The position numbers were made by a program, and so were the translations under genes. The notes below the pieces were generated by a model that was not told the DNA's origin, searched no databases, and saw only the letters and a program-made list of their open reading frames with translations. Positions 1 through 43,667 of a stretch of 64,000 bases of DNA are shown piece by piece. Source of the stretch: Streptomyces lincolnensis (GTDB taxonomy: Bacteria; Actinomycetota; Actinomycetes; Streptomycetales; Streptomycetaceae). Each line of letters starts with the position of its first letter. The first letter of the stretch is position 1. The stretch covers positions 6,944,001 through 7,008,000 of the forward strand of contig NZ_CP016438.1 in assembly GCF_001685355.1 (NCBI RefSeq). The letters run 5' to 3'.

Positions 1-1593
1 TGGCGGGAGATCGCGACGATACTGGCCGACCGGGACCCGGACCACGCCCGCGACCTGCTCACCGAGACCGCCCGCGGCCTGCTGGCCGAGGCCGGACATC
101 TCGCCCGGACCGATACGAGCACCAGCACCGGTACCCCCCTCATCGACTTCAGCAGTCCCAGGCGATGGAGGTGGTCGCGGTGGCGGAAAGCGATGACACC
201 GACCGTTCGACGGGCAGGGACGGAGGCGGGTGCGCTGAGGGCGGCCTTCCTGTCTGGCGTCCCGCGCCCGCGCACACGGTCCGAAGTGCGATACGAGCTG
301 ACACAGACCACGGAAGCGCTGGCCGGGCTACATCCCGTGGGGGCCGAACGCCTCGCCCTGGCAGCCGCTCCCGACGACCCCCGAGCACAGGCCAGAGCGT
401 TGGCGGGAGTCGCCGGGATGCTCACCGACAGGGACCCGCAGCAGGCACAGCGGATCCTGGCCAAAGCCGAACGCCTCGTCCGCACTCTCATCGGCCCGTA
501 CGAGCAGGCCGGTGCGTTGGCGCCGGTCGCAGCAGTGCTGGCAAGACTGGACCCGACGCAGGCCAAGCACCTGGCTGGCACCATCCCCGAGCCATACATG
601 ACTTCAGCGCTGGTAGAGATCATCAAAGTGGTGCTTGAGCGTGACCCCGACCAAGCCGAACGCCTCGCGAGTACCGTCCCCCAGGGGGACGGTCGTGCCC
701 AGATGCTGGCGCAGATCGCAGACGTGCTCGCCCCCGAGCACCCGGACCGGGCCCGCACCCTGCTCACCGAAGCCCGCACGCTCACCGCATCGCCTCTGAC
801 GTCGATCAAGGTCTTGACCGCGCTCGCGAAGATGACAGCCGGGCAGGATCCACGCCAGGCCACCGAACTGCTGGTCGAGGCCGAACACCTCGCCCTCGGT
901 CACGACCTCGGTAGGTACGTCATCCAGGAGATCGTGGAAGCGCTGGCCACCCTGGACGCCGTCGAGGCCGAACGCCTCGCCCGTACCCTCACCGACCCTT
1001 CCCTCCAGACCTGGGCCTTGACGAGCATCGTCAAGGCCCAGGCCAAGCACGACCTCGTCGACGCTGTCTACCTCGCGCAAACCATCCTCCAGTCACCCGA
1101 ACTGGCCACACGAGGAGGGGCGGAGGCAGTGGCAGCGGTGGCCGAGCAGGACACCGCCCAGGCCGAACGCCTCGCCCGTACCCTGCCCGACCCGCGTAAC
1201 CGGCTCAAGGCACTGATGGCGATCGCGAAGGTGACAGCAGGGAAGGATCCACGCCAGGCCACCGAACTGCTGGTCGAGGCCGAACGCCTCGCCCTCGATC
1301 ACGATCTCGGCGAGTACGTCATCGGGGGGATCGCGGAAGCGCTGGCCCCCCTCGACACCGCCCAGGCCGAACGCCTCGCCCGCACCCTCACCGGCCCGTA
1401 CATCCGCATCGAGGCGCTGATCGCGATCGCGAAGGAGAGGGCCGAACCCGACCCGGACCATGCCCAGCAACTCCTCGCCGAGGCCGAACACCTCGCGCAC
1501 GCTCTCCCCGGCCCCCTCCGGCAAGCCTCGGCATTGGTGAAGATCGCACAGCTGCACGCAAGCTGCCCCCCTCAGGACCCACCGCAGGCCTAG
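1..1593 (+). CDS. Helical-repeat protein, 5'-truncated by window edge
   Basis: The frame is open from base 1 to a TAG stop at 1593, so this is the C-terminal 530 residues of a longer protein whose N-terminus lies outside the window. It consists of repeated helix pairs with a recurring core of the form AERLARTL followed by a proline-containing turn and ALxxIAK, as in TPR/HEAT-type alpha-solenoids. Roughly residues 37-100 do not fit the repeat and are Arg/Trp/Ser-rich, so a frameshift or a linker there is possible. An internal ATG at 193 has no ribosome binding site. Two stretches 396 bp apart (about 830-905 and 1226-1301) are nearly identical at DNA level, showing recent internal duplication. 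No catalytic motif is visible. Such solenoids usually bind proteins, but the function here is unknown. Confidence 0.75.
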   Translation, partial: WREIATILADRDPDHARDLLTETARGLLAEAGHLARTDTSTSTGTPLIDFSSPRRWRWSRWRKAMTPTVRRAGTEAGALRAAFLSGVPRPRTRSEVRYELTQTTEALAGLHPVGAERLALAAAPDDPRAQARALAGVAGMLTDRDPQQAQRILAKAERLVRTLIGPYEQAGALAPVAAVLARLDPTQAKHLAGTIPEPYMTSALVEIIKVVLERDPDQAERLASTVPQGDGRAQMLAQIADVLAPEHPDRARTLLTEARTLTASPLTSIKVLTALAKMTAGQDPRQATELLVEAEHLALGHDLGRYVIQEIVEALATLDAVEAERLARTLTDPSLQTWALTSIVKAQAKHDLVDAVYLAQTILQSPELATRGGAEAVAAVAEQDTAQAERLARTLPDPRNRLKALMAIAKVTAGKDPRQATELLVEAERLALDHDLGEYVIGGIAEALAPLDTAQAERLARTLTGPYIRIEALIAIAKERAEPDPDHAQQLLAEAEHLAHALPGPLRQASALVKIAQLHASCPPQDPPQA

Positions 1594-2489
1594 GCCGACA
1601 GGCCCCGGAACTCCAGGTCCAACCGCGCCACCTCCCCCTCCGTCAGTTCCAGCTCCGTCGCGGCGGCCGAGGAGCGGATCGTCTCCGGGCGGCTCGCTCC
1701 CGGGATGGGGATGACGGTCGGGGATCTCGTCAACAACCAGGCGAGGCAGACCTGTTGGGGGCTCGCACTACGCTCCCGCGCGACGGAGTGGAACGCCGCG
1801 TGGCGGTCCCGCTCCTCGGTCCGGGACGGTCCGTCCAGGGAGCTGCGGGAGATGCCGCCCAGCGGGCTCCAGGGGAGGAACGCGAGGCCCAGTTCGGCGC
1901 AGAGGGTGAGTTCGGCCTCGCTGTCGCGGACGGCGGGGGAGTACTGGTTCTGCACGCAGACCAGGCGCTCGCCGAGGATCTCCCGGGCCACCCGGATCTG
2001 TCCGGTGTCGGCGTTGGAGATCCCGGCGAGCCGGATCGTGCCCGCGTCGAGCAGGTCGCGCAGCGCGCCGACCGAGTCCTCGAAGGGCACCGCGGGATCG
2101 GGCTTGTGCAGCTGGTAGAGGCCGATCGCGTCGACACCGAGCCGCTTGCGGGAGGCCTCGGCGGCGGCCTTGAGATGCCGTGGGGTGCCGGTCACCGTCC
2201 AGCTGCCGTCGGCCGGCCTGCCCCGGCCGCCCTTCGTCGCGACCAGCACGTCGGAGGTGTCACCGCCGTAGGCAGCGAGGGCGCGGGCGACCAGCAGTTC
2301 GTTGTGCCCGGGGTCGGCCCCGGGCAGGTGGTAGGAGTCGGCCGTGTCCAGGAGGGTCACGCCCTCGTCCAGCGCCGCGTGCACGGTGGCCAGGGCGCGG
2401 GCCTCGTCCGGCCGGCCCTCGATGGACAGCGGCATGGCACCAAGTCCTACGGCGCTCACGCGCAGGCCGCCCAGGGTGCGGTACCGCAT
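1590..2489 (-). CDS. Aldo/keto reductase
   Basis: A 299-residue protein of normal length for the aldo/keto reductase superfamily, which reduces carbonyls with NADPH in a (beta/alpha)8 barrel. It opens with a typical strand (RYRTLGGLRVSAVGLG). The catalytic tetrad is recognisable: Asp48 (LLDTADSY), Tyr53, Lys86 (VATKGGRG) and His128 (LYQLHKPDP). The C-terminal WLLTRSPTVIPIPGASRPETI matches the cofactor-binding end of the family. Its ATG shares one base with the stop of the upstream epimerase gene (TGATG), so the two are probably co-transcribed and translationally coupled. Its 3' end overlaps the end of the convergent repeat-protein gene by four bases. The substrate cannot be predicted. Confidence 0.93.
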   Translation of the reverse strand: MRYRTLGGLRVSAVGLGAMPLSIEGRPDEARALATVHAALDEGVTLLDTADSYHLPGADPGHNELLVARALAAYGGDTSDVLVATKGGRGRPADGSWTVTGTPRHLKAAAEASRKRLGVDAIGLYQLHKPDPAVPFEDSVGALRDLLDAGTIRLAGISNADTGQIRVAREILGERLVCVQNQYSPAVRDSEAELTLCAELGLAFLPWSPLGGISRSSLDGPSRTEERDRHAAFHSVARERSASPQQVCLAWLLTRSPTVIPIPGASRPETIRSSAAATELELTEGEVARLDLEFRGLSA

Positions 2490-39816: not shown

Positions 39817-40450
39817 CGCGGGTATCTCGGTGCTGATCGTCGACGACCATCCCGTCGTACGGGACGGTCTGCGCGGCATGTTCGCATCGGCACCCGGATT
39901 CAGGGTCCTCGGCGAGGCGGCCGACGGAGTGGAGGCGGTCGCGAAGGCCACCGCCCTCGATCCGGACGTCATACTGATGGACCTGCGCATGCCCGGCGGG
40001 GGAGGCGTCGACGCCATCCGCGAACTGACACGCCGGTCCGCACGCGGCAAGGTCCTGGTCCTCACCACGTACGACACCGACTCCGACACCCTGCCGGCCA
40101 TCGAGGCCGGCGCCACGGGCTATCTGCTGAAGGACGCCCCGCGCGACGAACTCTTCACCGCGGTCCGGGCCGCCGCCGAGGGTCGCACCGTCCTCTCCCC
40201 GGCCGTCGCCTCCCGCCTGGTCTCCGCCGTCCGCACCCCCAGAACTCCCGGCAAGGAACCCCTCTCCGCCCGCGAGCGCGAGGTACTGGCCCTGGTCGCC
40301 AAGGGCACCTCCAACCGTGAGATCGCCCGCGAACTCTTCATCAGCGAGGCCACCGTCAAGACCCACCTCACCCACCTCTACGCCAAGCTGGGCGTCAAGG
40401 ACCGCGCGGCGGCCGTGGCGACGGCGTACGAGCGCGGGATCCTCGGCTGA
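39806..40450 (+). CDS. NarL/FixJ-type response regulator
   Basis: A 214-residue regulator. The receiver domain (6-120) has acidic residues DD13-14 and the phosphoacceptor Asp59 (VILMDLRMPG), with Lys107 in GYLLKDAP. A LuxR-type HTH follows (about 148-210; LSAREREVLALVAKGTSNREIA ... TVKTHLTHLYAKLGVKDR). The ATG overlaps the kinase gene. It is the cognate partner of the kinase and probably controls the upstream ABC genes. Confidence 0.95.
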   Translation: MTSDAGISVLIVDDHPVVRDGLRGMFASAPGFRVLGEAADGVEAVAKATALDPDVILMDLRMPGGGGVDAIRELTRRSARGKVLVLTTYDTDSDTLPAIEAGATGYLLKDAPRDELFTAVRAAAEGRTVLSPAVASRLVSAVRTPRTPGKEPLSAREREVLALVAKGTSNREIARELFISEATVKTHLTHLYAKLGVKDRAAAVATAYERGILG

Positions 40451-40476
40451 GTCCCCGGGCCCTCAGGGCGGGGGAC
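40451..40476. terminator. Hairpin between convergent genes
   Basis: Complementary arms GTCCCC and GGGGAC enclose an inner GCCC/GGGC pairing, immediately after the response regulator stop and overlapping the end of the convergent sulfatase remnant. It may act as a bidirectional terminator. Confidence 0.45.
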
Positions 40477-41082
40477 AGGGCAGCAGACCGCCGGCGATCC
40501 TCTCCCACGCCTTCTTCAGGTGGTCCTTGCCCGCGGAGTCCTGGTAGTACTTCCACCTCCCGCGCCTGAGCGCCCGGTTGGCCCGCACCCGCCAGAACAG
40601 GTCCCGCTCCGGCAACTCCTCGCCGCGCAGCAGGTAGCCGGTGAGGCTGGTGCCGTCCAGGGGATACGCCGGATCGGGGCGGGCGCCCCCCAGTTGCAGC
40701 AGGGTCGCGGTCCAGTCGGGGGAGAAATTCGGCTCGTGGCTGACCTGGTGGCCGTCGATACGGGCCGGCCGCCGCACGATCGTGGGGACCCGGATGCCGC
40801 CCTCCTGGAGCACGAACTTCTCACCGCTCAGCGGCCACAGGTACGACCAGCGCTCGCCTCCGTTGTCGCTGGCGAACAGCACCAGCGTGTTCTCCTCCTG
40901 CCCCGACCTGCGCAGCGCGGCGAGCACCTCGCCGACGGCCGCGTCCAGGCTCTCCACCATCTGCGTGTACTTGGCGACCGAGCCGCCGTCGTAGTGGTTC
41001 AGCGCCGCGCTGACCTCCGCCCGCGTCTTCGCGGCCCTGATCCGCGCCGCGATCCGCGCGCCGGTCTCCTCACGGTCGTGTA
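40463..41082 (-). pseudogene. Sulfatase, C-terminal fragment
   Basis: About 206 residues matching the C-terminal third of bacterial arylsulfatases: ALNHYDGGSVAKYTQMVESLD, NTLVLFASDNGGERWSYLWPL, FVLQEGGIRVPTIVRRP and FWRVRANRALRRGRWKYYQD. The N-terminal catalytic region with the formylglycine CxPSR motif and its metal ligands is missing, so no sulfatase activity is expected. A matching Tat-type N-terminal fragment survives at 41236-41349, and the material between is replaced by a structured insert. The open frame runs into the insert up to 41128, but with no credible start. Confidence 0.8.
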
Positions 41083-41235
41083 TTGACGCCCTCTCCTGTC
41101 GAGGACAGGAGATTCCGGTCCGTACCACTGCGCGGTACCACCTCGGGTTCCTGTTTCACAGGCCACTGCCGACCGGTGAGGGTCGGTCTTACACGGCCTG
41201 CACAGGCCTGACCTACCGCCGGAGGCCGCGGGGCG
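41083..41235 (-). mobile_element. IS200/IS605 (tnpB-type) right-end / omega-RNA-like remnant
   Basis: A structured segment that breaks the sulfatase gene. On the minus strand it shows successive hairpins (GGCCTG/CAGGCC; GACCG/CGGTC; CCTGT-GAA-ACAGG; GTACC/GGTAC), then GGAATC, a perfect 9-bp hairpin (41092-41112) and finally AGGGCGTCAA at 41083. This is the layout I know from the right end and omega-RNA 3' part of Streptomyces tnpB-carrying IS605-group elements: GGAATC, hairpin, AGGATGTCAA. No tnpA or tnpB is present, and the left boundary (about 41235) is only approximate. The same stretch contains GGTGGTACCGCG, the T-box riboswitch core, so a T-box leader is the competing reading. Confidence 0.5.
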
Positions 41236-41349
41236 GGCCTTGAAGGGGCGTTCGGCGGGGGTCGTCTCGGCGGCCGTCGTACCGGCGACGGCGGTCACGG
41301 CACCGCCGCCGACGAGAGAGCCGAAGGCACGGCGTGACATCTCGGGCAT
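41236..41349 (-). pseudogene. Sulfatase, N-terminal (Tat signal) fragment
   Basis: Begins MPEMSRRAFGSLVGGGAVTA and continues to ERPFK. SRRAFG plus the following hydrophobic stretch is a twin-arginine export signal typical of secreted sulfatases. After about 38 residues the similarity ends where the structured insert begins. It presumably belonged with the C-terminal sulfatase fragment downstream; about 200 or more residues of the enzyme are gone. Confidence 0.6.
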
Positions 41350-41423
41350 GCGCCTCAGTCGATCAGCACGCCGATCTCAGGGCCAGGAATCACGGGGAGA
41401 GTTCATGATCCTTCAACGCCGCC

Positions 41424-43667
<2,244 letters not shown>

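Follow-up and report, generated by a model that had tools for sequence, protein, structure and literature searches.

The sulfatase gene described here is a pseudogene, and the segment that interrupts it is very probably the remnant, truncated at its 5' end and no longer mobile, of a PATE/MITE-type element of the IS200/IS605 group that had inserted into the gene. The gene lies in a 64,000-nucleotide stretch of the Streptomyces lincolnensis genome (the window; positions 6944001 to 7008000 of a single contig of 10.3 Mb). As the first-pass annotation had described, a Tat-type start and the C-terminal part of a sulfatase, recognized by its PF00884 match, flank a structured segment on the minus strand. 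That segment is present, although it measures 138 nt and not the ∼150 bp proposed, and its open reading frames and sequence contain neither a tnpB nor a tnpA gene, in agreement with the earlier description of an insert without tnpB. Coordinates are collected in Table 1.

Table 1. Features of the interrupted sulfatase gene, in positions of the window
Feature	Positions	Strand	Basis or remark
Sulfatase 5' fragment	41218..41349	-	Tat-type leader by eye; ATG at 41349; homology to relatives
GGC common to sulfatase and element at the left junction (short microhomology)	41218..41220	-	Sulfatase homology ends at 41218, element homology starts at 41220
Right-end module of a tnpB-less IS605-type element (PATE/MITE)	41083..41220	-	tnpB 3' tail remnant and omega-RNA-like scaffold; ends GTCAA
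Candidate pseudoknot 5' strand, GAC	41186..41188	-	Sequence position, -106 to -104 from element end
Right-end hairpin, 9 bp, 3-nt loop	41092..41112	-	Folding; both-side changes in 5 of 8 consensus pairs across the family
Candidate pseudoknot 3' strand, GTC	41085..41087	-	Sequence position, -5 to -3
Would-be guide, flank at right end	41063..41082	-	Starts TACACGACCGTGAGGAG; recognizable sulfatase from about 41071
Sulfatase 3' fragment	40463..41071	-	PF00884 match; ∼72-nt further loss at about 40519/40520

The two sulfatase pieces are encoded on the minus strand, between what we take from their translations to be a response-regulator gene and a glycogen-debranching-type gene, and they are read in unlike frames (41349 to 40999 and 41128 to 40463). 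The 3' piece covers profile positions 199 to 300 of the 301 in PF00884 (E = 4.5e-17), has some match in 98 of the 199 genomes of our search of relatives, and shares 83 to 88% amino acid identity with its 11 best relatives outside the host. When the sulfatase genes of 13 relatives were translated, the frame proved unbroken in 12, with a shifted N-terminal frame in the other (L031). Comparison with intact loci of this kind had been proposed as a check on the insertion, and by both translation and DNA alignment the 138-nt segment is absent from all 13. At the DNA level, eight of these loci align together with both neighboring genes, three with one neighbor (L028, L035, and L037), and two with neither (L030 and L036).

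Homology to these orthologues ends at about 41218 and restarts at about 41071. The first of these points is reached exactly in five of the eight aligned relatives, while in the remaining three homology ends at 41220 (L035), 41221 (L027), and 41228 (L032). In the relative L025 the same two points correspond to subject positions 912 and 1504, 591 nt apart; because the window holds only 11 nt of flank besides the element, ∼580 nt of sulfatase (∼193 codons) are missing, and the earlier view that a deletion accompanied the insertion was borne out. Those 11 nt (41082 to 41072), which separate the right end from recognizable sulfatase, have no clear homology to relatives. The lost part contains the CSPTR motif of the relatives, presumably the sulfatase signature. 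A second loss of ∼72 nt is seen within the 3' fragment (40519-40520, minus strand) against four relatives, and it marks ongoing decay of the pseudogene.

On its own strand the insert reads GTGTAAGACC ... GTGAAACAGGAACCC ... GGAATC-hairpin-GGGCGTCAA, and its closing arrangement, GGAATC followed by a 9-bp hairpin with a 3-nt loop and then GGGCGTCAA, is as the first-pass annotation gave it. Its extent was delimited by a search across 392 congeneric genomes, which returned, among the matches listed, 13 element-only matches in 11 genomes; all 13 start at query position 201 (41220) and run to 338 or 339, and so span the non-sulfatase part. Alone, the 138 nt fold to -64.2 kcal/mol (z = -3.0), a value equaled by 1 of 200 dinucleotide shuffles, and with 25 nt added on the left the fold has a z of -2.2 (6 of 200 shuffles as good). 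Folds of two PATE copies gave a z of -2.8 for L098 (4 of 200) and -1.65 for L069 (11 of 200). Folding of this strength would also suit a non-mobile structured RNA, an attenuator or terminator of the sulfatase gene, but we regard this explanation as highly improbable: the segment is absent from the genes of the 13 relatives, copies are dispersed at other sites, and no Rfam family reached its gathering score within the window. A permissive Rfam search of 40400 to 41500 gave only one irrelevant match, on the plus strand, and a scan for tRNA and tmRNA gave none.

A DNA search of the host genome with 251 bases recovered the window copy alone; a covariance model was needed to reveal the relation to tnpB. 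The model, R1, was built from 34 right ends, namely the window copy and 33 tnpB-less copies. The host genome has 10 matches to PF07282. R1 found only three places in this genome: the window, at 145 bits (itself one of the 34 rows), and the 3' ends of two tnpB genes, L002 (50.4 bits, E = 7e-9) and L005 (29 bits, E = 0.0012). R1 was also run on eight additional genomes (two from the genus, six from other genera), and five of them had matches. TnpB matches were present in 26 of the 30 loci returned from those genomes and lacking in 4, and in all of the 26 but one (L241) the TnpB match runs into the module. A GTAAGAC-type motif occurs in all 21 of the tnpB loci examined (of 29), at -100 to -110 in 17 of them; the distances found by script had other values at L161, L162, and L233, and L242 gave none. 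Judged from sequence, the insert is an IS200/IS605-type right end consisting of a tnpB 3' tail and a putative omega-RNA-like scaffold. The first-pass annotation had assigned it to this class, and similar sequence does lie directly behind the two host tnpB genes and behind tnpB genes of other genomes. The host tnpB element L002 (G000:C1:137746-137946) has GTAAGAC, GAARCAGGAACCC, the hairpin, and GTCAA in common with the insert, but of 122 positions aligned with the window element no more than 90 are identical.

The nearest relatives of the insert are of another kind. A search of the 199 genomes with the insert found homologues in 7, host included, and an exact-pattern scan of genome contigs gave 36 loci, all of them in Streptomyces. 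With three TnpB queries, no TnpB match was found before the element in any of the 36 loci up to 2 kb upstream (fewer than 420 bases at L084, L097, and L099). Ten TnpB queries run over the 36 whole loci likewise placed no tnpB behind any element, their matches being confined to a separate tnpB on the other strand in L100 and a distant fragment in L074; the same ten queries found a tnpB at 0 of 11 further right ends. Full-length copies are ∼278 bp long and run from GCTACCGAAC-CTTGCCCAGTGCTCC-hairpin to GTCAA, some of the 36 loci being cut short. These full-length copies have near-terminal palindromes at both ends (identified by eye on the left and by folding on the right), whereas the window copy has the right palindrome only.

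Could the window copy nevertheless descend from a full-length, tnpB-bearing element, with a later deletion taking away the left end and the bulk of tnpB along with some of the sulfatase? The insert is homologous to tnpB 3' ends, that of host L002 included, and a deletion from the sulfatase into the element is required either way. Yet the window element shares 128 of 137 positions with the tnpB-less copy L098 and 125 to 126 of 137 with three more such copies, compared with the 90 of 122 for L002, and the closest copies found, 91 to 93% identical to it, are all tnpB-less. The model scores divide in the same way. Across 11 genomes, 44 R1 matches exceeded 110 bits (hand count), and in the 27 of these that had loci, tnpB lay behind the module in none, L146 having a nearby tnpB on the other strand; tnpB-borne right ends reached at most 88 bits, in a model that was built from tnpB-less copies and whose scoring favors tnpB-less ends. 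We therefore consider descent from a tnpB-bearing element improbable and prefer the PATE-type remnant.

The left end offers a further view of the family. A left-end pattern allowing up to 3 mismatches occurs at 42 places in 14 of 16 genomes searched, and 39 of the 42 lie, by coordinates, just before a known right end. No autonomous partner emerged by this route, as the other three places have no tnpB behind them (L222 is another PATE; L223 and L224 are cut short). The host has no PATE-type left end (0 matches at up to 3 mismatches), and for this reason the PATE origin of the window copy rests on its right half.

Several individual genomes and copies merit description. One genome (G322, with loci L137, L140, and L170) has 17 R1 matches: two at 149 to 157 bits, six at 114 to 125 bits, and nine at 29 to 64 bits. 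The middle six are perhaps a second PATE subfamily. S. colonosanans accounts for 10 of the 36 exact-pattern loci (L068, L073, L074, L075, L076, L079, L081, L083, L088, and L090), and the very similar right ends of its copies suggest a recent amplification. In S. humidus (L100), a tnpB at 398-1606 (plus strand), 69% identical to host L002, lies less than 0.6 kb from a convergent PATE at 2182-2460 (minus strand), and the right end of that tnpB is unlike the PATE's. Many copies, such as that at L098:3956-4234 (minus strand), have in their interior an inverted repeat, GTCCGACAAC...GTTGTCGGAC, directly before the tnpB tail, with what by eye seems to be compensatory variation. Promoters were also sought by eye in the PATE interior, and we claim none because the TAAGAT-like letters fall in the least conserved block (0.66).

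From these comparisons, an intact element of the family is ∼278 bp long. Its left end forms a hairpin and is followed by a short interior and then by the final ∼140 nt of a tnpB-type element, which represent the tnpB C-terminal tail, an omega-RNA-like scaffold, the right-end hairpin, and GTCAA. Since the element encodes no transposase, it would have moved in trans, with a Y1-type TnpA as the most likely mover.

How such an element enters its target can be read from a relative copy, L140, which sits in a conserved gene for which 11 empty loci were inspected. Ten of these run from the site straight into right-flank sequence (six with CGCTAC, two with CGTTAC, and two with CGGTAC); the eleventh, L175, was taken at a wrong offset and was left out of the count. 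At the occupied site, GCTA(T) is followed by the element with its GTCAA end and then by the right flank. Because the empty sites read directly into the flank, L140 went in 3' of a GCTAC-like site and neither duplicated nor removed any sequence there, in the manner of ISDra2 and IS608, for which insertion 3' of the target site without duplication is described (PMC8612924). This evidence for clean insertion comes from one family copy, the left junction of the window copy being deleted.

The window copy would have inserted likewise, 3' of a GCTAC-like site and without duplication. With a GCTAC target rebuilt, the window has 18 nt from TGG to GAGGAGACC (hand count), equal to the spacing in L025, and on the strength of this agreement its right junction looks original. 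A deletion, which we place after the insertion, would then have joined sulfatase to element across a 3-nt overlap, removing the ∼580 nt of sulfatase together with the left half of the element and the target site. The left end, target site, and left half are indeed gone from the window copy. Given the loss of its left half, the copy should be immobile, and it is probably inactive.

If the remnant were read from upstream, it could give at most an omega-RNA with a sulfatase-derived guide, one with no detectable target: searched against the host with up to 3 mismatches, target site plus guide gave 7 matches, one of them its own locus, versus 8 for a reversed-pattern control. The first-pass annotation had also suggested that a TnpB elsewhere could serve the unit in trans. 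This idea drew no support beyond being possible, given the guide matches and the 90 of 122 identical positions in the host's best tnpB scaffold.

To what extent the scaffold has been maintained can be judged across the family. The structure was taken from the consensus of the alignment itself, which favors the covariation result. Over 28 distinct rows, pairing holds in 97.5% of cells; double changes occur in 11 of the 35 pairs, and compensatory cells number 50. None of 500 shuffles reached either the number of double-change pairs or that of compensatory cells. Further pair types numbered 26 versus 22 in shuffles, and 11 of the 500 shuffles reached 26; slid structures lowered pairing to 33 to 48%. 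Conservation was measured in 22 full-length copies, which remained of 25 candidates once L062, L096, and L139 had been dropped. By mean pairwise identity in 20-nt blocks, the right module scored 0.80 to 0.89 except for one block at 0.67, the left tip 0.84 to 0.85, and the left interior 0.66 to 0.78. Such conservation fits selection on the scaffold, short of proof of TnpB use.

In the omega-RNA of ISDra2, positions -105 to -103 pair with -5 to -3 in a pseudoknot (PMC10097598), and candidate strands of the Streptomyces element are placed alike. The candidate GAC/GUC pairs in 98.8% of cells of the 28 distinct rows and is nearly invariant, the row of L082 breaks its middle pair, and its GUC has other possible pairing partners. 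Because the strands hardly vary, the alignment is consistent with the pseudoknot and amounts to no covariation proof.

These observations bear on a wider reading, in which PATE copies act as trans-acting guide units: an omega-RNA together with a TnpB from elsewhere would cut the empty donor site, and recombination would restore the copy, the window copy being disabled. The compensatory pairs kept in the scaffold, pseudoknot strands at ISDra2-like positions, and scaffold blocks about as conserved as the left tip all speak for it, and the part that was kept probably exceeds what TnpA requires of a right end. On the other hand, DNA hairpins used in transposition can also yield compensatory changes, the further pair types stand only modestly above shuffles, the pseudoknot pairs lack covariation and are broken in L082, and the fold of L069 is weak. 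Moreover, no cognate TnpB came to light; three tnpB ends from these genomes were tested and scored just 50 to 66 bits. We hold this reading to be possible but tentative. Within the PATE-remnant account that we prefer, the scaffold may have been kept because a TnpB uses it, or formerly did.

Solitary omega-RNAs and PATEs have both come up in work on IscB and TnpB. A paper on the Streptomyces family was not found among open-licence PMC papers, which is weak as a sign of absence; PMC12558985 and PMC11870625 gave no hit to terms for standalone, non-autonomous, or in-trans units, and two passages of PMC10711439 are not on such elements. The palindrome-associated transposable elements of Haloquadratum walsbyi, as presented in PMC3119063, include some that arose from IS605-type elements by core deletion. 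Like the Streptomyces family, they have near-terminal palindromes of the IS605 kind, cause no target duplication, and are too short for a transposase; unlike them, the Streptomyces family keeps a right end of ∼140 nt with a complete omega-RNA-like scaffold, while the window copy is without its left half. A second parallel is the ends-only IS605 sequence of Halanaerobium hydrogeniformans, which, according to PMC7290912 (section 3.8), combines a left-end hairpin, the last 58 nt of tnpB, and the whole 160-nt right end in ∼271 nt. It is one sequence in one genome, in contrast to the Streptomyces family with its multiple copies, many genomes, and compensatory changes. In ISDra2 the reRNA or omega-RNA scaffold is likewise formed from the tnpB 3' end and the right end, with a guide from the flank and a target motif on the left (PMC8612924 and PMC10097598). 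The Streptomyces element differs in having no tnpB, in its GCTAC-like target as opposed to TTGAT, and in being known here from sequence alone.

The family accounts for a sulfatase pseudogene. Whether or not the scaffold functions, it also provides 22 aligned full-length copies and a clean empty site for the study of IS605-type ends in Streptomyces. Taken further, the findings might mean that Streptomyces genomes carry dispersed, protein-free mobile guide-RNA genes that take their guide from the flank and parasitize TnpA and TnpB in trans, with the TnpB of another element cutting the empty site and so restoring the copy, and with the sulfatase copy disabled; we think this unlikely on present evidence. 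The idea of a guide acting in trans is the interesting part, and intact copies from other Streptomyces are the better material for it. If the scaffold is functional, those copies would amount to natural guide units that act in trans and would allow a direct test of whether non-autonomous elements exploit TnpB for their own retention.
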